From Kocuria subflava (GTDB lineage: Bacteria; Actinomycetota; Actinomycetes; Actinomycetales; Micrococcaceae): 64,000 nucleotides of DNA. Position 1 is the stretch's first letter; every line of letters begins with the position of its first letter. The notes below the pieces were generated by a model. That model saw only the letters and a program-made list of their open reading frames with translations. It had not been told where the DNA came from and did not search any database. The stretch spans positions 1 through 64,000 of the forward strand of contig NZ_JAAVUN010000015.1 in assembly GCF_012163155.1 (NCBI RefSeq). Reading direction: 5' to 3'. Position numbers and translations under genes: made by a program. This document shows, piece by piece, positions 1 to 8,322 of this stretch.

Positions 1-326
1 TCGGCAGTGCACCCATCAAATCGAAACCGACGACTCACAGAGCGACCGGACCGAATGAAGGGGGCGGCCCAGCTGCGCGCCGACGGAACAGTCGTGGCTG
101 CGGGCGATCACACCGAGCAGCAATGCAATGTCAACGCCTGGGCCACTCGACCACAGATGAACTGAAGTCCAGCGTGCCCGGTAATCGGCCGTCGATCACA
201 CGTTGAACCTAAACTCAACCACGTTCCGTAGCCGAATAACCTCAGCTTGCGAACTCGGCAAAGCCGTCTCACCCGACAAAACGGTCATCGCTCATGCGTG
301 ACAGTAACGTCGGGGAAAAGCGATCG
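1..326. other. Left edge of window, no supportable gene
   Basis: This stretch lies downstream of the stop codon of the minus-strand membrane protein gene and runs off the window. I see no reading frame with a plausible start, ribosome binding site and protein-like composition. Its one notable feature is a short sequence at 223-247 that resembles the end of ychF in inverted orientation (described separately). The accessory block probably continues leftwards beyond base 1, so its outer boundary and any integrase gene are not visible. Confidence 0.6.
223..247 (+). repeat. Possible inverted copy of the ychF 3'-end repeat
   Basis: Read on the plus strand, this segment begins with GTTCCGTAGC, continues with GA and then TAACCTC. 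These blocks line up without gaps with the minus-strand ychF-end copy at 4426-4473, with about 21 of 25 positions identical by my count. It is in opposite orientation to the other copies, and similarity does not extend upstream. It could be the far end of an inserted element, an inverted relic, or chance. Confidence 0.35.
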
Positions 327-1655
327 TCACAACCTGGGACCGTCGTTCCGATCCCAATCGACGGGACCCAGCGCGATAGTAGAGTCGGTCCACTCGTCGG
401 ACGTTCCTGGCCACGTCGTGGGCGGTTCGGCACCGGCATACCGATACTCTCCAAAGCGACCAGTCCCCCCGATCCCGAGCACCCAGCCTGACGGCAAACG
501 ACGCCACGCTCGCCACTTCTTCTTGTCGTTCGTCGTCTGAACAACGATGCCGTGCTGATCTGGTAAGCCCCACTTCGACACGGGGCTGACCACCATGTCG
601 GTGAGGTCATCCCAGAACGTCTCTCCCCGCCGTTCGTACCGGAGAGCCTGGGCAGTATGGATGAACTGCAGAGCGCGTTTAGTGCCGTCGAACTCTCTAC
701 GGTCGAGTTGAGCCCCCGTTTCGTCAACCCCGGCCTGACCTGAAAACATCTCCAGGGCTGCGAGCCGATCAGCTTCGAGTTGCTCGCGTCGGGTCACGTC
801 GTGTCGGAAGTCGCGCATCTCTGACAGCGCTCCCCTAAATGTTGTTGCTCGCGCCACGTGGTTGTAGCGGCCGGTCAGTTCCTTCGCCCAGCGCACAGAT
901 CCGTCTAGCCCCGCGGAGACTCCTAAGCGTGCACGTAGTGGCATCTCTTCGTTTGTCCACAGGAGCCGCTTCAATATCACTTCAATGGCGGCGTAGAACG
1001 CCACTGCGTAGAGGTAAGGGAACATCGCGAATGGGAGCCACACTGATAGCGCCAACGGAGCCAGTAGGTCGGGCCAGACGAGCTCGTCCCACTTGTTCAA
1101 GGTCTGGGCGGTGGTCCATGCGAGCAGGCCCAGTCCGATCAGCACGAGCGGGATCGAGAAACACCCGAGTACTCGTTGGCCCTTCTCGTCGCGCTGAGCA
1201 AAGGCCGTCATCGCCGCCAGGAGAAAGATGACCGGTTGCGCGATCAGCTCGCCCCACAGAGGCAGCGATTCCAAGTTCAGGTAGAACAGGAACAGCGTGG
1301 ACAGCGTGAGGGTCTCGCGACGGACGTGATCGAGGATCTCAACGCCGGACTTCGCTTCTATGGATTTGAAGAGGAGCGGGAAGCCAACACCGACCACGAT
1401 GACGACGGTGTCCTTCAATAGCTCCATGTGCCAGATGCCGAGGAGCCATGCGAGCCAGACCCACAGTGCGGCCCAAACGACGAAGAGCCCAAAGACGCGG
1501 AGCACCGCCCATTTGAAGAGAGAGCACGCAACAGAACCGAGAGCAGGGAACACGATGCCACGCCATTTAGGCAATACCATGGCGAGCACGACCAGCAACG
1601 CGATCAAGATCACGGACGCAAGTTCACGATTATTCAGCATGTTTGCCCAAGCCAC
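327..1655 (-). CDS. Hypothetical multi-pass membrane protein with soluble C-terminal half
   Basis: I do not recognise this 442-residue protein. Its first half has about six hydrophobic segments (for example near residues 12-30, 34-75 and 120-215), many with Trp/Leu-rich stretches. The last 200 residues are soluble and charged and contain many Arg and Trp. The GTG at 1655 gives the longest frame; an ATG at 1640 (protein beginning MLNNRELAS) is an alternative. Neither has a strong ribosome binding site. It is the outermost visible cargo gene of the block downstream of ychF and shares the orientation of the OLD nuclease, the small nuclease-like gene and the HEPN-like gene. A role in phage defence is only inferred from these neighbours. 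Confidence 0.6.
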   Translation of the reverse strand: MAWANMLNNRELASVILIALLVVLAMVLPKWRGIVFPALGSVACSLFKWAVLRVFGLFVVWAALWVWLAWLLGIWHMELLKDTVVIVVGVGFPLLFKSIEAKSGVEILDHVRRETLTLSTLFLFYLNLESLPLWGELIAQPVIFLLAAMTAFAQRDEKGQRVLGCFSIPLVLIGLGLLAWTTAQTLNKWDELVWPDLLAPLALSVWLPFAMFPYLYAVAFYAAIEVILKRLLWTNEEMPLRARLGVSAGLDGSVRWAKELTGRYNHVARATTFRGALSEMRDFRHDVTRREQLEADRLAALEMFSGQAGVDETGAQLDRREFDGTKRALQFIHTAQALRYERRGETFWDDLTDMVVSPVSKWGLPDQHGIVVQTTNDKKKWRAWRRLPSGWVLGIGGTGRFGEYRYAGAEPPTTWPGTSDEWTDSTIALGPVDWDRNDGPRL

Positions 1656-2001
1656 TTGTCACTACGGGTTTTGCCCAATCGTATCTAGGCACACCGACAA
1701 CTGTCGGATCCCTTAACGGGCACTCAAGACCGCTGAGGGCCGAGGAAACTCTACAACTTTCCCAGCGGTCAGGTTCGCGGTAGCAGCGCTTTGCCTGAGC
1801 GCAACTGCGAGGAAACCAATCTTGCCTAAGACCTCTCCGACAGAGTCTCTGTATCGTGCGTTCGCACTAGTGCGCGCTGAAGAACTAGCGACAGCCACCG
1901 CTAACAGAAGTTGGAGCGCAAATCTAAATTCCACCAATTTACGGCACGGAGCAACCTCTCACGCCCAGAGGGCTGGGGGCAAGCTCCGTCAGCGGGAAGG
2001 A
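1656..2001. other. Intergenic stretch with degraded ychF-end-like sequences
   Basis: No convincing gene is present between the membrane protein gene and the OLD gene. A minus-strand frame at 1713-1937 encodes 74 residues, but it starts with TTG, has no clear ribosome binding site and no recognisable domain. Two places recall the end of ychF: 1905-1935, which is fairly clear, and about 1744-1765, which encodes GKVVEF and is weak. The simplest reading is a cassette boundary with decayed sequence between two old junctions. Confidence 0.5.
1905..1935 (-). repeat. ychF 3'-end-like repeat, copy 4 (degraded)
   Basis: On the minus strand this begins GGTGGAATTT and ends AACTTCTG. It aligns without gaps to the copy at 3902-3944 at 24 of 31 positions by my count. 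In one frame it encodes VEFRF, as in YchF C-termini. It separates the membrane protein gene from the OLD gene. It is more divergent from ychF than the copies nearer ychF, as expected for an older junction. Confidence 0.5.
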
Positions 2002-3822
2002 TCAGAGCGGCGCGCGCTTGTGCGCGTCCACGATCTCGCTCAGCCACTTCGTCAAGGGCTTGATGGCGCGGTGCTGGCCTGACGTCGAGCCGAGGTGCTG
2101 CCGCAGCAGCGCCGACGGAACGTGCGGCTTCGCCTTGCCGGACTTCTTGCGGTCCGAGTTCCAGCCCTTCGCACCGAGGTGTGCCGCCATCGCCTCGCGA
2201 CCGGAGGCTCCAGTCGCGAAATCCTCCGCGGTCTCCTTGCTTACCTCCCCGGTCTCGTCGGGGCCGAGCATTCTCGCCAGCTTCTCCTGACCGACCACGT
2301 CGAGGAGCAGGCCTTCGAGATCGGAGCTCAGCACGAACGCGTCCCATGGCTGCAGAATCGTGTTGAGCTCCTCCTGGTGCTCGAGCGCAGCCTTGAGGGT
2401 CGTCACCCGTCTGTCCGCCAGATCGCGCAGGCCGTTGAGGAACAGCGTGGACGGCTTCGGGTCCTTGCCCTTCAGGATCTCGACCAGGGCACGCTTGTTG
2501 TCGCCGCTCTTGTGGACGCCGTCCTTGTCCGTGAGCACGTAGGCGCGGACGCCGAAGAGCTGAGCGAGCCGGAGCAGGTGCGAGATCGTCGTGATCCCGG
2601 ATGCCTCGATCACCGCGATGCCCAGGGCATAGTGGCCGCCCGGTCCACCGGTGATGCTCTCCAGCAGGTAGTCGATGACGAGCTTGTCGCCGTGGCCCTC
2701 GACCAGGATCACCGAGCTGGCGAACACGAGCTCGCTGTTTGTGGCGTCGCAGTAGCGCGTCAACCGTCCTTCTTCATCGACGGCCAGGTCCGGCTTCAAT
2801 GCCGAGTAGGTCATGCCCTCCGGACTGAGCGGAAGTCGCGCGATCCTGGTGACCGAAAACGAGTCGACGAGCACCGGGCTGTGGGTCGTCACGAGCAGCT
2901 GCGCCTCCGCCGAGATGTCCTTCAGGATCTTGGCCATGGCTCGCTGCGTCTGCGGGTGGAGAAAGGCCTCGGGCTCCTCGATGGCGAAGATGACGTTGGT
3001 CCCCGCCTGCCTGCTCTTCGACGAGACGTAGCGAAGGATGCCGAGCACCAGGGCGGACTGGAATCCGGTGCCGCGCTCGGCAATCGGCACCACGACGTCG
3101 TCGTGACTGGTGATCACTGCTTCTCGGAGCATTCCGCGCAGCGCGTGCTGGGGCGCAGGCAGGTCGACTCCGAGGACCGGATCCTGGAAGGGCAGCTCGG
3201 TCGCCACCGAGTTCACCGACTCGCTGAGGACCTCCCGCACCAGATCCTCGACCGGCTCCATCACCTTCGCGAAGTCCTTCTGGAGCTGCGTGGAGCGGGA
3301 GTTGCCCGAACGGACGAGCACGCCCTCCAGGGTGTCGTGGAGCCGCGTCAACGACTGGTCTGCATCGCCCTGGTCGGCACTGCCCACCCTGATGGAGGGG
3401 ATCTTCACGAAGTCGAACGACTGGAGCGCCCACTCGTAGATCTCGCGAGACCGCGCTTCCGTGCCCTTCCAAGTGCGATAGCTGATCTTGCCCTTCCTCG
3501 AGCAGGTGATCTGGACCCAGAACGTCCCATCGCGGCCGAGCGTGCCGTCCAGCTCGGTGGCCTCTGCTTGCGAGAGGCCACCGAAGTGGACCTTGATGCT
3601 CGACAGCATCCTGGGGCCGCCGTCGACGTAGTAGTCGTTCAGCGGCTTCAGCCGCCTGAAATCGTCCGACGTCGGATCCGAGAAGAAGGTCTCGAGCACA
3701 CGGATGAACGACGACTTGCCTGCGTTGTTCGGTCCTGCGATGAGCTGAAGGCTCGGGTCCACGTCAAGCGACAGCGCCTTGAAGCCCAGGAGGCGCTCGA
3801 TGTGGACCTGTTCGATGTGCAT
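2002..3822 (-). CDS. OLD-family ATP-dependent endonuclease (solitary)
   Basis: This 606-residue protein has the two-part architecture of overcoming-lysogenization-defect (OLD) nucleases. An N-terminal ABC-type ATPase carries Walker A GPNNAGKSS at residues 30-38, a Walker B region IEEPEAFLHP and a switch motif TTHSP. A C-terminal TOPRIM nuclease domain carries VEGHGDK near residue 370 and a later TDKDG metal site. Such proteins cut DNA and act in phage defence or DNA repair. No UvrD-like helicase gene lies beside it, so it fits class 1 (stand-alone) OLD rather than the Gabija pair GajA/GajB. It starts with ATG and sits between two ychF-end-like repeats, about 80 bp downstream of the copy at 3902-3944. 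Function in this host is inferred. Confidence 0.88.
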   Translation of the reverse strand: MHIEQVHIERLLGFKALSLDVDPSLQLIAGPNNAGKSSFIRVLETFFSDPTSDDFRRLKPLNDYYVDGGPRMLSSIKVHFGGLSQAEATELDGTLGRDGTFWVQITCSRKGKISYRTWKGTEARSREIYEWALQSFDFVKIPSIRVGSADQGDADQSLTRLHDTLEGVLVRSGNSRSTQLQKDFAKVMEPVEDLVREVLSESVNSVATELPFQDPVLGVDLPAPQHALRGMLREAVITSHDDVVVPIAERGTGFQSALVLGILRYVSSKSRQAGTNVIFAIEEPEAFLHPQTQRAMAKILKDISAEAQLLVTTHSPVLVDSFSVTRIARLPLSPEGMTYSALKPDLAVDEEGRLTRYCDATNSELVFASSVILVEGHGDKLVIDYLLESITGGPGGHYALGIAVIEASGITTISHLLRLAQLFGVRAYVLTDKDGVHKSGDNKRALVEILKGKDPKPSTLFLNGLRDLADRRVTTLKAALEHQEELNTILQPWDAFVLSSDLEGLLLDVVGQEKLARMLGPDETGEVSKETAEDFATGASGREAMAAHLGAKGWNSDRKKSGKAKPHVPSALLRQHLGSTSGQHRAIKPLTKWLSEIVDAHKRAPL

Positions 3823-3901
3823 GACGTCAGCCTAGAAGTTGGGCCGCGTCTGGTGCCGGCGGCCGGAGTGCACGAAGCGATGAGTCGTCGTTCAGCCTTT
3901 G

Positions 3902-3944
3902 GCAGACGTTAAAGTACAAAACGAAATTCCACCGCTTCACCGTC
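3902..3944 (-). repeat. ychF 3'-end-like repeat, copy 3
   Basis: The minus strand here matches the end of ychF at about 32 of 41 positions, allowing a two-base gap. Most differences in the coding part are third-position changes. It encodes DGEAVEFRFVL followed by TAA and forms the C-terminus of the small nuclease-like gene. Similarity continues past that stop into AACGTCTG, which in ychF is still coding. That continuation argues for shared DNA ancestry rather than chance protein similarity. Confidence 0.65.
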
Positions 3945-4421
3945 AAGTGCCTCGTATGCGGCGCGCATTTCGTCTGTCACGTCAATCCCTGCGTTCTCGA
4001 TCTGCCTCAGCGTCGGCTGTCGCCCGTTCGTGTGAGCACTGTACTGAGACACTGCTTCGACGTCGTTCGCGCTGACCTCACGAGCGAAGGCCAAATCGAA
4101 GGTCTGAAACTCGAAGACGAGGAAGACCGCAGTGTCGAAGTCGAAGCTACGAAACGGGCTGAACTTGCCAGCCTTGCCAGCAGTCCGCCCACCCATCGCC
4201 TTGACCTGAATCCTCCGGCCGCTGGGATCGGTGACGTCATGTGACTTCGTTGAGTTCGGCTCAAGAACTCCTCCACGAGCCGCAAGGACCACCTGTTCGG
4301 CGATGTCTCCCAGAGGCTTGTTATTGGTGCGCACCAAGCCTCGCTGGCGAAGCTCCTCGACTACGCTTGCTTCCACCTGGAGCAGCTCCCGTACGTGGAG
4401 CCTCGAGACGTCGGGCAGCAT
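3909..4421 (-). CDS. Small PD-(D/E)XK nuclease-like protein (DUF6998-like)
   Basis: This 170-residue protein has an N-terminal helical part followed by an arrangement typical of PD-(D/E)XK nucleases: GDIAEQVV with Glu42, Asp62 in KSHDVTDPSGR, and Gln72-Val-Lys74 in RRIQVKA. It resembles small restriction-endonuclease-like proteins annotated as DUF6998; I infer a nuclease fold but not a target. It starts with ATG four bases after the stop codon of the duplicated ychF tail at 4426-4473, so that tail may supply its ribosome binding site (GGGAAGAAG). Its last residues, DGEAVEFRFVL, resemble canonical YchF C-termini. The 3' end of the gene may therefore itself derive from a ychF end. Confidence 0.65.
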   Translation of the reverse strand: MLPDVSRLHVRELLQVEASVVEELRQRGLVRTNNKPLGDIAEQVVLAARGGVLEPNSTKSHDVTDPSGRRIQVKAMGGRTAGKAGKFSPFRSFDFDTAVFLVFEFQTFDLAFAREVSANDVEAVSQYSAHTNGRQPTLRQIENAGIDVTDEMRAAYEALDGEAVEFRFVL

Positions 4422-4425
4422 CGAG

Positions 4426-4473
4426 CTACTTCTTCCCGCCAGAGGTTAATCCGCTACGGAACTCCACAACGTC
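4426..4473 (-). repeat. ychF 3'-end duplication, copy 2 (probable att relic)
   Basis: This segment reproduces the last 15 codons and stop of ychF. 42 of 46 aligned positions match 5268-5313, and all four differences are synonymous codon changes (GTG/GTT, CTA/TTA, ACG/ACC, GGT/GGG); the stop is TAG instead of TGA. Weaker similarity extends upstream through ATGCAG with a three-base insertion. Purely synonymous differences mean both ends evolved under selection as part of functional ychF genes. One of them therefore arrived from another lineage, as happens when an element integrates in a gene end and restores it. Confidence 0.85.
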
Positions 4474-4477
4474 TCGA

Positions 4478-5269
4478 TCAGTCTGCATCATTGGGCATCC
4501 TTCGAATGACATCGTTCACAATGCATTGGGTCACATCCAGTAGTTCTCTACAGAGGCTCGTGATGTCATCGACATTCCGATATCTTCGAATGTTCTCGAG
4601 GCGCTTTCTTGCCGCCTCCGCGGGCTTAGTGACATCCAGTTCATGCGCGATCTCGTTTCGGGCGCTGAACGCCTTCTCCAGAAGGGAGGATCGAGTCTTC
4701 GTCGACCCGATCCGTTTTCTCAGATCGCCGTCGACTACGCCGAGAGCGCCCGCAATCTCAGAAACGCGGTCCGCCGACTGAGCGCTATTCGACTCCAGTG
4801 CGTAAATCCATCTTCCAACCATGATTTCTCGGGGATCTTTCCCCTCCCCTAAGAGGACGCGCACCAGATCCTTTGCCCGCACGGCACCATCTACGTCGCC
4901 AATCTGGGTCTCGGCGAAATCGCTGAGCTTCTTCGATACGCCTTGGTCCGATTTCGCTAGCAGGGGTAGCGCTTCAGCGACCAGCCTCTTGAGTGCCGTG
5001 TCCAATCCTGCACCGCAGAACAAAAGTGCAGATCGTAAGCAGTCAACCGCCTCCGATGTAAACTTCCCACGCACAGCCTTACCCTCGGCGGTCTTGCGAA
5101 GCGAGTTCATCGTGTAAGCCATCGCGATCGCCGACTCCGCGGAAGACCGAGCCGCACCGATCGCAACCTGCACCTCAGGAAGGTTGCCCCAGGCGCGCGG
5201 GTCCGGCTCTGTGAGGTTCGAAAACTCGAAGCCCCAGAGCGACTCCTCGGCGTCCTTCGCCGAGATCAC
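4478..5269 (-). CDS. HEPN-like domain protein, probable defence or toxin RNase
   Basis: This 263-residue, mostly helical protein carries RNEIAH near its C-terminus (Arg204 to His209). This fits the Rx4-6H active-site motif of HEPN ribonucleases, and the context SARNEIAHELD resembles RiboL-PSP-HEPN proteins. I do not recognise the first 190 residues. The GTG start overlaps the ychF stop codon (GTGA), so translation is probably coupled to ychF. The 3' end runs into the second copy of the ychF tail. It is flanked on both sides by ychF ends, and the 5268/4428 pair defines a unit of about 840 bp with this as its only gene. HEPN proteins commonly serve in abortive infection or toxin-antitoxin systems; no antitoxin partner is evident here. 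Confidence 0.6.
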   Translation of the reverse strand: MISAKDAEESLWGFEFSNLTEPDPRAWGNLPEVQVAIGAARSSAESAIAMAYTMNSLRKTAEGKAVRGKFTSEAVDCLRSALLFCGAGLDTALKRLVAEALPLLAKSDQGVSKKLSDFAETQIGDVDGAVRAKDLVRVLLGEGKDPREIMVGRWIYALESNSAQSADRVSEIAGALGVVDGDLRKRIGSTKTRSSLLEKAFSARNEIAHELDVTKPAEAARKRLENIRRYRNVDDITSLCRELLDVTQCIVNDVIRRMPNDAD

Positions 5270-5313
5270 TTCTTACCGCCAGACGTTAGTCCGCTACGGA
5301 ACTCCACCACGTC
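5266..5313 (-). repeat. Functional ychF 3' end, copy 1 of the repeat
   Basis: This is the current end of ychF, encoding DVVEFRSGLTSGGKK and TGA. It matches 4426-4473 almost perfectly and 3902-3944 partially. The core TCCG-TAG-CGGA is a small perfect inverted repeat, as often found at tyrosine-recombinase crossover sites. I regard it as the junction formed by the latest insertion. Confidence 0.8.
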
Positions 5314-6363
5314 CCCGTCCTGCATGATGTAGTCCTTGCCCTCCATGCGCACCTTGCCCGCAGCCTTGGCCTCAGCCATGGAGCCCGCAGCCAGCAGGTC
5401 GTCGAAGGACACCACTTCGGCCTTGATGAAGCCCCGCTCGAAGTCCGTGTGGATCACTCCGGCGGCCTGCGGCGCCGTCGCACCCTTGCGCACGGTCCAG
5501 GCCCGGGATTCCTTGGGACCCGCGGTCAGGTAGGTCTGCAGGCCAAGGGTGGAGAATCCCACCCGCGCCAGCTTGTCCAGGCCGGATTCCTCCTGGCCGG
5601 ACATCTCCAGCATCTCGCGGGCCTCCTCCTCGGAGAGCTCGACCAGCTCGGACTCCAGCTTGGCGTCCAGGAACACGCACTCAGCCGGGGCGACCAACGC
5701 AGCCAACTCGGCCTGGCGCTCAGGCGAACCCAGCACGCCGTCGTCGGCGTTGAACACGAAAATGAACGGCTTGGCGGACAGCAGCGTCAGATCCCGCAGC
5801 TGCTCCATGTCCAGGTCGGAAGCGCGGGAGAACACCGTGTGCCCCTCCCCCAGCACCTCAGCCGCCGCCTGATAAGCCGACAGCTTGGCCGGATCGGCCT
5901 TCTTGATCCTGACCTGCTTCTCCAGGCGCGGGATCGCGTTCTCCAGCGTCTGCATGTCCGCCAGAATCAGCTCGGTGTTGATGGTCTCGATGTCTGAGGT
6001 CGGGTTGACCGCGCCGTCCACGTGGATCACATCCGGATCCTCGAACGCGCGCACCACCTGGGCAATGGCGTCGGCCTCACGGATGTTGGCCAGGAACTGG
6101 TTGCCCAGACCTTCGCCCTCAGACGCACCCTTGACAATGCCCGCGATGTCCACGAAAGACACCGTGGCCGGGACCTCGCGCTCCGAACCGAACACGGAGG
6201 CCAGCTGCCCCAGCCGTTCATCCGGCAGGTTCACCACACCCACGTTGGGCTCAATGGTGGCGAACGGGTAGTTCGCCGCAAGCACGGTGTTACGGGTCAG
6301 CGCGTTGAAGAGGGTCGACTTGCCGACGTTGGGCAGTCCCACAATTCCAATAGTTAAAGCCAC
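5266..6363 (-). CDS. ychF: Redox-regulated ATPase/GTPase YchF
   Basis: YchF is a conserved Obg-family P-loop ATPase that binds ribosomes and takes part in translation and stress control. The 365-residue product matches the usual length of about 363. It has the P-loop GLPNVGKST at residues 8-16, a coiled-coil insertion in the middle and a C-terminal TGS domain. The GTG at 6361-6363 is chosen because the protein then begins VALTIGIVG; longer upstream frames are not protein-like. The C-terminus is RSGLTSGGKK after VVEF, whereas many YchF proteins end close to EFRFNV. This difference fits replacement of the gene end by an insertion. The stop overlaps the next gene, so the downstream cargo genes could be co-transcribed with ychF. 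Confidence 0.95.
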   Translation of the reverse strand: MALTIGIVGLPNVGKSTLFNALTRNTVLAANYPFATIEPNVGVVNLPDERLGQLASVFGSEREVPATVSFVDIAGIVKGASEGEGLGNQFLANIREADAIAQVVRAFEDPDVIHVDGAVNPTSDIETINTELILADMQTLENAIPRLEKQVRIKKADPAKLSAYQAAAEVLGEGHTVFSRASDLDMEQLRDLTLLSAKPFIFVFNADDGVLGSPERQAELAALVAPAECVFLDAKLESELVELSEEEAREMLEMSGQEESGLDKLARVGFSTLGLQTYLTAGPKESRAWTVRKGATAPQAAGVIHTDFERGFIKAEVVSFDDLLAAGSMAEAKAAGKVRMEGKDYIMQDGDVVEFRSGLTSGGKK

Positions 6364-6535: not shown

Positions 6536-7492
6536 ATGAACACACCAGCGGTCCAACTCATCGACCTCCACAAGACGTTCTCCACCCGTGGTGGCAAGGT
6601 ACGCGCCGTCGACGGTGTGGACCTGGTCATCGAAACCGGCGAGATCGTGGCCTTCCTTGGCCCCAACGGCGCAGGCAAGACCACCGCCCTGGACATGGTC
6701 CTCGGCTTCACCACCCCCACCTCCGGCCAATGCCTGGTCTACGGCTCCGAACCGCGCAAAGCGGTCCGCGACGGCCGCGTCTCGGCGGTCCTGCAGACGG
6801 GCTCCCTGCTCGATGACCTCTCCGTGCGGGAGACGGTGGCCATGGTCGCCTCCCAGCACGGCGTGCACCTCCCCGTGGACGAAGCGCTGGAGCGGGCCGG
6901 AGCCACGAACTTCGCCCACCGCAAGGTCTCCAAGTGCTCGGGCGGTGAACAGCAGCGTCTGCGCTTCGCCCTGGCACTGCTGCCCGAACCCGATCTGTTG
7001 ATCCTGGACGAACCCACGGCCGGCATGGACGTCAACGCCCGCCGCGACTTCTGGGCAGCCATGCATGCCGAAGCCGAACGCGGCCGCACCATCGTCTTCG
7101 CCACGCATTACCTGGAGGAAGCCGAACAGTTCGCCGACCGGATCGTCGTGATCACCGACGGCCGCATCCTGGCCGACGGCACCACCGAAGAGGTGCGCGC
7201 CTTGGGCGGCTTCCGCACCGTCTCCGTGCGTTGGAACGACGACGACGGCGACCCCACCGCCGCGCTGGCCGACATCCCCGGGGCCGAAACCGTCCAGGTC
7301 CACGGCGGCCGCACGGTGTTCACAGGGCCGGACACGGACGCCATCGCCAGGCACCTTCTGACCCGCACGTCCGCCAACGACTTGTTGATCGTGCAGGTTC
7401 CGTTGGAAGAGGCGTTCATCGGCCTCACGCACAAAACCACCGACCAGGCGTCCACGGAGCAGCAGTCCGTAGAAGGAGCACAGCAGTCATGA
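6536..7492 (+). CDS. ABC transporter ATP-binding protein (drug/lipid exporter type)
   Basis: This 318-residue protein is the ATP-hydrolysing subunit of an ABC-2 type exporter. It shows Walker A GPNGAGKTT near residue 42, signature CSGGEQQR, Walker B LILDEPTAGMD and switch histidine in FATHYLEEAEQF, followed by a C-terminal extension of about 100 residues. The stop overlaps the permease start (ATGA). It heads a four-gene run ABC ATPase - permease - sensor kinase - response regulator, each overlapping the next by four bases. This arrangement is typical of DesK/DesR- or LiaSR-like systems that sense membrane or drug stress and control a linked exporter. The substrate cannot be told from sequence. 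Confidence 0.92.
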   Translation: MNTPAVQLIDLHKTFSTRGGKVRAVDGVDLVIETGEIVAFLGPNGAGKTTALDMVLGFTTPTSGQCLVYGSEPRKAVRDGRVSAVLQTGSLLDDLSVRETVAMVASQHGVHLPVDEALERAGATNFAHRKVSKCSGGEQQRLRFALALLPEPDLLILDEPTAGMDVNARRDFWAAMHAEAERGRTIVFATHYLEEAEQFADRIVVITDGRILADGTTEEVRALGGFRTVSVRWNDDDGDPTAALADIPGAETVQVHGGRTVFTGPDTDAIARHLLTRTSANDLLIVQVPLEEAFIGLTHKTTDQASTEQQSVEGAQQS

Positions 7493-8322
7493 ACACCCAG
7501 ACCATCCCCGGCAACTCCGCCCCGTCGTCGTCGCCCGCGCGACCCAACGCCTTGGTGGGGATCCTCAAGTACGCGGCCTTCGACTTCCGGCGGCAACTGC
7601 GGATGTTCGAAAGCCTGTTCTTCATCATCGTGCTCCCGGCCGCACTGTTCATCATGTTCGGTTCGATCACCAGCTACGGAGACTTCCCCGCCGGGCACGG
7701 CACGGTTTCCGGGTCGATCGCCACCTCCATGGCCGTGTACGGCGCAGTCACGGCCACCACGAGCATCGCGGGTTCGGCCGCCGTCGAACGATCCCAGGGC
7801 TGGGGGCGTTTGCTGGCACTGACCCCGATGGCCCAGTGGCAGTACGTGGTCGCCAAGGTCGTGGTGGCCCTGGCCATCGCTGTCCTCCCCGTGGTGGTCG
7901 TGTTCGTCGTCGCCTCGATGACGGGAGCTGAACTCGGATCCCTGGGCATCTGGCTCTCGGCGGGCGCACTGAGCGTCCTGTGCTCCACGATGTTCGCCCT
8001 CTACGGCCTGTTCTTCGGCCTCATGTTCCGCTCGGAAGCGGCTGTCGGAGCCGCCGGCGGCCTGCTGGTGGTCCTCGGATTCTTCGGCAACCTCTTCACC
8101 CCGCTGTCCGGGACCATGCTGGAAATCGCCAAGTTCACCCCGCTGTACGGCATCCACGGTCTGGCCACCTGGCCGCAGATGGAAGGGGAACTGATGTCCT
8201 CCATGGGTGAGGCGCTCGATCCGGACACGTTGGGGATGCTGGTCACTAGTGTGGTGGTGTGGACCGTGATCTTCGGGCTGATGGCCCTCCTGGCTGCACG
8301 CCGGGGAACTCGGCGCGCATGA
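7489..8322 (+). CDS. ABC-2 type transporter permease
   Basis: This 277-residue integral membrane protein forms the pore of the exporter energised by the preceding ATPase. It has about six hydrophobic helices after a hydrophilic N-terminus of roughly 35 residues (for example near residues 42-60, 80-95, 118-145 and 150-200). The start ATG overlaps the ATPase stop and the stop overlaps the kinase start, so translation of the operon is probably coupled. Its length and layout match ABC-2 family permeases paired with NarL-type two-component systems. Substrate is unknown. Confidence 0.88.
   Translation: MNTQTIPGNSAPSSSPARPNALVGILKYAAFDFRRQLRMFESLFFIIVLPAALFIMFGSITSYGDFPAGHGTVSGSIATSMAVYGAVTATTSIAGSAAVERSQGWGRLLALTPMAQWQYVVAKVVVALAIAVLPVVVVFVVASMTGAELGSLGIWLSAGALSVLCSTMFALYGLFFGLMFRSEAAVGAAGGLLVVLGFFGNLFTPLSGTMLEIAKFTPLYGIHGLATWPQMEGELMSSMGEALDPDTLGMLVTSVVVWTVIFGLMALLAARRGTRRA

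Follow-up and report, generated by a model that had tools for sequence, protein, structure and literature searches.

Repeated ends of ychF as probable attachment sites of mobile elements in Kocuria and other Actinomycetota

The repeated ends of ychF described here are, with high probability, attachment sites, the 3' end of ychF in Actinomycetota (coding for DVVEFR-FNV) being a target of mobile elements. I came to this view through a stretch of Kocuria subflava DNA of 64,000 nucleotides (called the window below, at its full length), in which the sequence at 4426-4473 repeats the end of ychF. This copy is most likely the tail of a restriction-endonuclease-like cassette, parted from ychF by an 840-bp HEPN-like unit. 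The evidence comes from comparison of sequences, within the window and with other genomes, which are referred to by G numbers (genomes), C numbers (contigs) and L numbers (loci) where they need to be told apart.

Results and Discussion

The two copies of the ychF end

Two stretches of the minus strand, 4426-4473 and 5266-5313 (the latter the 3' end of ychF), each code for DVVEFRSGLTSGGKK followed by a stop, the last 15 codons of ychF occupying 5269-5313 and those of the second copy 4429-4473. They are unlike at 6 of 48 positions, four of them coding (all synonymous) and two in the stop (TGA/TAG). Given that 25% of random single substitutions in these codons are synonymous, the chance of four in four is about 0.004. 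Alignment of the copies bears out the original prediction that their 15 terminal residues are identical despite four unlike codons and an unlike stop. A 31-base repeat pattern, with up to three mismatches allowed, has two matches in the window against none expected, and three diverged copies of a 17-bp core, missed by that prediction, start on the minus strand of the same island at 3938, 1940 and 225. When 91 bases spanning the copy were searched against the strain's own assembly, the matches were the copy itself, the ychF end and two more at E-values of 0.8 and 1.6, with no further copy of similar identity.

Native and swapped ends of ychF

Each species is represented by one genome in the sets searched. 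Among 27 Kocuria genomes, ychF ends with RFNV in 17, with RFAI or RFAV in 3 and with a swapped tail in 7, that of the window included. The native end may be written VEFR-FNV and the swapped one VEFR-[S/T/H]G[L/Q]TSG[G/S][K/R]K; in the window an acquired SGLTSGGKK replaces the native FNV. In three genomes (G003, G014 and G023) one common flank directly follows the RFNV end. In G005, G006 and G022 the same flank is displaced from ychF, by 11.6, 10.2 and 1.3 kb respectively, which makes the 3' end of the gene an insertion site. The far junction carries a repeat of the ychF tail in G005 and G006; at that in G022 a core or tail repeat was looked for and none was found.

A 40-base tail pattern matched 12 of the 395 family genomes, spread over 6 of 32 genera, and its reversed control matched none. 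In a collection of named genomes the pattern found 41 stretches in 39 genomes, from 22 named genera and two MAGs named to family, all of them actinobacterial as judged from their titles. The genera include Brevibacterium, Cutibacterium, Corynebacterium, Actinomyces, Schaalia, Janibacter, Microbacterium, Nocardiopsis, Dietzia and Rothia. Viral contigs searched with the pattern gave 0 matches. There are 45 distinct tail loci, of which 37 end a ychF (two of them, L080 and L084, begin at or near the end of the locus, their ychF being recognized by the DV prefix or assumed) and eight do not, the window's second copy among them. The swapped tail is, in all likelihood, an arm of an attachment (att) site, brought by elements that insert at the 3' end of ychF.

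An array of sites and cassettes in the window

Sites were sought with a 17-bp PWM trained on sites from 20 Kocuria regions, the window excluded; the training sites were chosen by fuzzy match, so scores within those regions are partly circular. The five best scores in the 64-kb window (starts 5313, 225, 4473, 1940 and 3938; scores 27.3 to 20.5) are the five sites, all on the ychF strand and within the first 5.3 kb, and the next best score in the window is 16.1. In 200 dinucleotide shuffles of the island, a mean of 0.1 sites scored 14 or more. The putative sites and the cassettes that they delimit are these:

5266..6363, minus strand: ychF, redox-regulated ATPase/GTPase (Pfam YchF-GTPase_C and MMR_HSR1)
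5266..5313, minus strand: att site 1, attL-like, at the ychF 3' end; core 5297-5313 (PWM 27.3)
4478..5269, minus strand: cassette 1 gene, 263 aa, weakly HEPN-like (PF18735, E 0.0062, under the cut-off)
4474-5313, minus strand, 840 bp: cassette 1, bounded by att sites 1 and 2
4426..4473, minus strand: att site 2, the tail DVVEFRSGLTSGGKK of the next cassette; core 4457-4473 (PWM 22.9)
3909..4421, minus strand: cassette 2 gene, 170 aa, type II methyl-directed restriction-endonuclease-like (PADLOC mREase_II 7.8e-24; Pfam DUF6998 4.2e-6)
3939-4473, minus strand, 535 bp: cassette 2, delimited by cores and by homologues at tails elsewhere
3909..3938, minus strand: att site 3, inside the 3' end of the cassette 2 gene; core 3922-3938 (PWM 20.5)
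2002..3822, minus strand: cassette 3 gene, 606 aa, OLD/GajA-like ATPase with TOPRIM (PF13175, PF20469; PADLOC GajA 1.8e-34, Old 1.4e-31)
1941-3938, minus strand, 1998 bp: cassette 3, bounded by att sites 3 and 4
1924..1940, minus strand: att site 4 core (PWM 21.4)
327..1655, minus strand: cassette 4 gene, 442 aa, probable membrane protein of no family (open frame; hydrophobic segments by eye)
226-1940, minus strand, 1715 bp: cassette 4, bounded by att sites 4 and 5
209..225, minus strand: att site 5 core, then a native-type RFNV tail (PWM 25.3)
1..208, no strand assigned: beginning of a further cassette, which the contig end truncates; 72-208 common to Kocuria G013

Each of the four units in the window holds one gene, on the strand of ychF. 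The cassette 1 protein carries, as read from the sequence, RNEIAH, which I take to be an instance of the HEPN motif Rx4-6H; its structure model (mean pLDDT 39.6) was unusable. The gene was found in 2 of 148 genomes of relatives, one of them its own, and in two Streptomyces plasmids at 24-31% identity. The cassette 3 protein combines an ABC-type ATPase with TOPRIM, according to the PF13175, PF20469, GajA and Old models, and the neighbours of its gene (endonuclease-like and membrane protein) gave no match to GajB, the helicase partner expected for Gabija. The cassette 4 protein matched no family in Pfam, PADLOC or NCBIfam.

The window begins at a contig end (C57), leaving 4.4 kb readable beyond the copy at 4426-4473. 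Site 5, with its native-type tail, was considered as the end of the island and rejected, since in G013 the same right flank stands within the array; the window's array therefore runs past the end of the contig. Behind site 5, 157 bp of the window (72-228) match, at 97.5% identity, a unit of G013 that stands at its own att site, and the RCC1-like gene in that unit has the opposite orientation. Positions 1-71 of the window do not align with the G013 cassette, which may mean that the RCC1-like gene is cut short or disrupted at that point, or that the assembly contains an error. Within the strain's own assembly no link between the window's contig and the native flank could be made, most matches to that flank being short and several lying at contig ends, and these matches look like repeats.

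Similar arrays occur elsewhere. Thirty regions behind a ychF or a tail (a count that leaves aside the uninterrupted native regions of G003, G014 and G023, in which no further PWM site was found) contain 45 further sites scoring at least 18 on the ychF strand and none on the other, and 71,864 bases of control DNA contain none. Near-duplicates (G008/G017 and Brevibacterium linens/Microbacterium gubbeenense) are counted separately here, and 16 of the 45 sites lie in sequences outside the PWM training set. Eleven of the thirty regions, those of Rothia and Zhihengliuella included, have no second site; two of the eleven (G011 and G026) are cut by contig ends. Unit sizes over the arrays range from 482 bp to 17.8 kb, with 21 of 45 at or below 2.6 kb, and some units hold several genes. 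The complete genome of Brachybacterium sp. Z12 (L138) has six tandem sites, a swapped ychF end included. In G018 (L037), 861 bp behind the ychF core, ychF is again followed directly by a one-gene unit, whose 268-aa product is HNH-like by eye and found no match in Pfam or PADLOC.

Cassettes that recur as units

The endonuclease unit of the window is 88.4% identical over 561 bp to a unit in G027, a member of another genus, and in both genomes the homology runs from the first base of the core to 26 bases into the next core. It is 79.1% identical to a unit in Nesterenkonia sedimenti, where it lies directly behind ychF, and att site 2 is the start of the block of homology common to G027 and Nesterenkonia. 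From att site 3 on, the C-termini of the homologues diverge: that of Nesterenkonia is DEALELHSGLTSGGGKK and the frame in G027 runs on, while att site 3 lies inside the 3' end of the cassette 2 gene, whose protein therefore ends ...EAVEFRFVL. It is the boundaries of cassette 2, not those of cassettes 1, 3 and 4, that independent homologues confirm.

Other units recur as well. A 5.1-kb block occupies slot 1 in G008 and slot 4 in G013 (97.1% identity), with a core at its start in both; its end falls 99 bp and 1.2 kb before the next cores. A 2.6-kb unit of G010, with a core at each side, is present in G013 (97.3%), where a core is called at its end and not at its start. Brevibacterium casei (L085) has an endonuclease-like gene behind the ychF tail at 5668, with its homology split over two frames, and this copy looks broken.

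The simplest history of the window would be that the endonuclease cassette once ended ychF and that the HEPN-like cassette was inserted between them later. The original prediction that the copy was imported on a mobile unit is supported, the copy being the tail of an endonuclease-like cassette found behind ychF in N. sedimenti. A further part of it, that the two ends derive from functional ychF genes of two lineages, the 3' end of a donor ychF having been dragged in on the mobile unit, was rejected and strikes me as very improbable. The synonymous-only differences between the copies would fit such an origin, as would the similar tail DNA in other genera. The tail, however, is not the native end in Kocuria, which is RFNV. 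At the second copy the homology sets in with the core and is preceded by no ychF body, and across genera an SGLTSGGKK-type tail travels with the element and not with the body of ychF. When it was asked, as had been proposed, which version matches vertical relatives of ychF, neither proved to be the vertical end, RFNV being the ending in 17 of the 27 Kocuria genomes.

Scarcely credible, in my estimate, is the view that the ychF end was duplicated locally, in tandem, when the HEPN-like gene went in, and drifted afterwards, even though the copies are 91% identical over 46 bp and lie 840 bp apart. All four of their coding differences are synonymous, three more diverged cores divide the island, and the endonuclease cassette brings its own tail in G027 and Nesterenkonia; local duplication was rejected, being contradicted by cassette boundaries that are common to other genomes.

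The tail as C-terminus and as start signal

If the repeats are attachment sites at the ends of mobile units, they are sites that also appear to encode protein. Among the distinct tails of the named genome collection, 36 of 37 read [S/T]GLTSG[G/S][K/R]K, a conservation that the search pattern in part enforces. The pattern fixes several positions, at which conservation is accordingly built in, and its one free codon (NNN) is the free test: it encodes Ser or Thr in 40 of 41 matches, Ser being AGC, AGT or TCT. Both tails of the window look as if they had been selected as protein-coding sequence, and the original prediction of coding selection on both ends agrees with this codon and with the synonymous-only differences between the copies.

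The tail also appears to give the first gene of the cassette its GTG start and a Shine-Dalgarno-like stretch for ribosome binding. In TCTGGNGGNAAGAAGTGA, GGNGG stands six bases ahead of a GTG that overlaps the TGA of ychF, and in the window the GTG overlapping the ychF stop starts the HEPN-like gene. The frame of this GTG was assessed in 33 tails attached to ychF, 24 of them with TGA, after exclusion of unattached tails and of repeated downstream DNA. It stays open for at least 100 codons in 19 of the 24 TGA-type tails, as against 3 of 24 in the +2 frame (Fisher p 6.5e-6), the sole control, since the +1 frame begins with the stop itself; the counts include related cargo genes.

In G021 (L038, at 16777 and 17259 from the ychF core) and Corynebacterium meridianum (L124, at 17650), GAGG...AAGTGA or GGTGG...AAGTGA is kept behind FNV-type tails, outside or past the ychF-type frame. 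Retention of these stretches behind native-type tails suggests selection on initiation itself.

A complete element and its recombinase

From the tail on, B. linens ATCC 9172 and M. gubbeenense DSM 15944 are 99.96% identical over 9202 bp, and the bodies of their ychF genes are 72.1% identical. At the far end of this common 9.2-kb element identity stops at ...CTGTCCGGAACGTGGT, past which lie two unlike sequences, GGAGTTCCGGTTTAATGTGTAG and CGAGTTTCGCTTCAATGTCTGA, both coding for VEFRFNV, the native type. The junctions look like attL and attR in site-specific integration, each defined in both genomes, and the far-end VEFRFNV tails would be the hosts' own displaced ychF ends.

A 515-aa protein of the element (L122) matches PF00239 (Resolvase, 3.8e-27) and PF07508 (Recombinase, 3.6e-10) and is, by these matches, a large serine recombinase related to phage serine integrases. 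Its identity to each of 461 records is below 60%, and no higher than 42.9% among the ten matches listed. Three island recombinases scored 45.4-57.9 bits against CcrB (cut-off 900) and 23.8-31.2 against CcrA (cut-off 700), and one of the three scored 31.6 bits against CcrC (cut-off 900). Their best NCBIfam match is XisF, at 67.0-85.2 bits, under its cut-off of 375. PF07508 has a match in 28 of 33 tail-bearing genome handles (N. sedimenti being counted twice), and eight of the genomes (G018, G021, G012, G302, G188, G454, G468 and G471) have it on the strand of the tail, no more than about 12 kb downstream. A stretch of 5.9 kb, recombinase included, is common to Rothia koreensis and a Zhihengliuella genome; a far-end site was sought for it and none was found. 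In L122 (3780-4319) and in L038 of G021 (7148-7711 from the ychF core) the recombinase is followed, after a short palindrome, by a small gene that is similar in the two elements.

The attP of an element was reconstructed by joining its two arms, and dyad symmetry was tested against shuffles. A dyad with its centre at the same base occurs in three of five recombinase-bearing regions: that of B. linens/M. gubbeenense, centred at GTGG|TCGA (p 0.0035), that of C. meridianum (0 of 2000 shuffles as good) and that of Kocuria rhizophila G012 (p 0.0045). No significant dyad was found in the other two recombinase-holding regions, G018 (p 0.85) and Pauljensenia hongkongensis (p 0.08), or in three cassette-only arrays, the HEPN-like unit of the window (p 0.14), G008 (0.997) and G013 (0.54).

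By Pfam and PADLOC there is no recombinase at 1-5265 of the window; the array passes the contig end, and one may lie beyond. Elsewhere in the strain's assembly, the sole PF07508 match is on contig C190, and two PF00589 matches are on C124 and C230. Fifteen genomes (G005 not among them) were searched for PF00589 near ychF, and none was found. The arrays of eight genomes have no PF00239 match, save one about 20 kb behind ychF in G010.

Cargo

Hand-picked cargo genes were profiled, nine with Pfam and ten with PADLOC, and eight of the ten have a PADLOC match. Among the matches are a Bpu10I-type endonuclease, HsdM, a type III methyltransferase, DrmD, Ppl, a YobI/Tmn-like NTPase, AbiD, PDC-S56 and an OLD/AriA-like ATPase. 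Other cargo of the arrays is, by eye, transporter-like, glyoxalase-like or ArsR-like. Going by such matches, the ychF locus is probably a hotspot of defence genes, at least among the genes picked.

How the arrays may arise

Comparison of genomes shows that some elements at the 3' end of ychF bear a large serine recombinase, that their DNA starts at the tail of the gene, YchF thereby coming to end in the element's residues, and that a native-type VEFRFNV tail lies at their far end. It also shows units stacked in tandem behind ychF between copies of one core, all in one orientation, with the same unit in different slots in different species. In the window, the endonuclease unit would have been first behind ychF and the HEPN-like unit would then have come between. 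Units lacking a recombinase would be moved in trans by a related one, and cargo would be transcribed from ychF and translated by reinitiation at the GTG of the tail. The logic might be integron-like, working on att sites common to serine-recombinase elements: small promoterless defence cassettes, often of one gene, would be captured, stacked and reshuffled behind a conserved housekeeping gene. A stretch of about 45 bp would serve three purposes at once, as att arm, as in-frame C-terminus of a protein (YchF, or the product of the cassette before) and as ribosome-binding site and start of the next cassette. This scheme as a whole, trans mobilization included, I offer tentatively, as quite possible but hardly assured.

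The units might instead move mainly by homologous recombination between cores or cargo, for example after natural transformation, the recombinases mattering for their own elements alone. The want of a recombinase in cis in most arrays examined speaks for this, as do the lack of a significant attP dyad in the cassette-only arrays tested and the common unit of G008 and G013 that ends away from a core. I nevertheless think it unlikely. Cores of about 17 bp are short for homologous recombination, and the same cores serve elements that bear a recombinase. Moreover, homology ends at most about 26 bp from the start of a core in the endonuclease unit, the B. linens element and one end of the G010/G013 unit. 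A tyrosine integrase as the main enzyme at the ychF site is decidedly improbable: G005 does have an integrase-like ORF (by eye) beside attL and a shorter repeat, TTCCGCTTCAACGTCT, at both ends, but this repeat is offset from the core of the arrays, and the search of 15 genomes, G005 apart, produced no PF00589 match near ychF.

Relation to known systems

Integrons have rows of small units, each bounded by a recombination site, that take different slots in different species. The ychF arrays, too, are rows of small units bounded by recombination sites, with slots that vary by species. They differ from integrons in that no IntI-type integrase was found near ychF (PF00589, 15 genomes), the sites resemble the 3' end of a gene, and units may reach 17.8 kb, some with several genes and at least one gene (RCC1-like, in G013) reversed. 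CIMEs, known from accretion, are recombinase-less units bounded by att sites and stacked at one locus, as are units at ychF, the latter being smaller.

The closest analogue is the staphylococcal cassette chromosome (SCC/SCCmec). The part of the source available (PMC4723332) describes serine-recombinase elements at the 3' end of rlmH/orfX that keep the gene intact, short direct repeats in the region that encode the last residues of rlmH, and pseudo-SCC elements without ccr. The ychF region is likewise divided by direct repeats encoding the last residues of the gene, and has recombinase-less units. The target here, however, is ychF in Actinomycetota and not rlmH, the island recombinases fall far under the Ccr cut-offs (best 57.9 bits, against 900 for CcrB), the units go down to one gene and about 0.5-2 kb, and the ychF tail lengthens the host protein and appears to carry the start signal of the cargo. 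The working principle seems to be alike, and membership in SCC fails on target and recombinase. Elements of the Enterococcus cassette chromosome (ECC) at rlmH, in the portion of PMC6222049 available, have large serine recombinases and att sites of about 50 bp with dyad symmetry. As there described they resemble the ychF elements in aiming at the end of a gene with large serine recombinases, and differ in their CcrAB-type recombinases and in their sizes, which start at 21 kb; ECC elements in tandem, with several ccr genes, were not observed. Pneumococcal prophages, according to the available parts of PMC6375853, PMC8637289 and PMC10383233, insert upstream of ychF, in one case at a 14-bp attB and with a changed ychF promoter. 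They, too, are mobile elements beside ychF, by these accounts upstream of the gene and not at its 3' end. A search of the open-access literature, in which YchF also figures as a mere phylogenetic marker, found no description of the 3' end of ychF as such an insertion site.

These observations point to a widespread actinobacterial landing site for anti-phage genes and make the ychF tail a simple handle for finding new defence genes. They would extend SCC-like island building beyond the Firmicutes, down to units of a single gene, and suggest a way in which promoterless cargo can be expressed once it has arrived. The recombinases, whose target appears to be the end of a conserved gene, could serve as integration tools.

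Other elements at the same gene end

The 11.6 kb directly behind ychF in G005 (L056, 0-11.6 kb) hold a prophage-like element with a tyrosine-integrase-like gene, recognized by eye, and the shifted repeat noted above; it is apparently an independent use of the ychF 3' end. Four Kocuria loci with a native FNV end (L044, L046, L047 and L049) have in common, just behind ychF, a left-end stretch CTCTGACCAGGG...TTCCG...ACCATCA, possibly the mark of a further type of unit.
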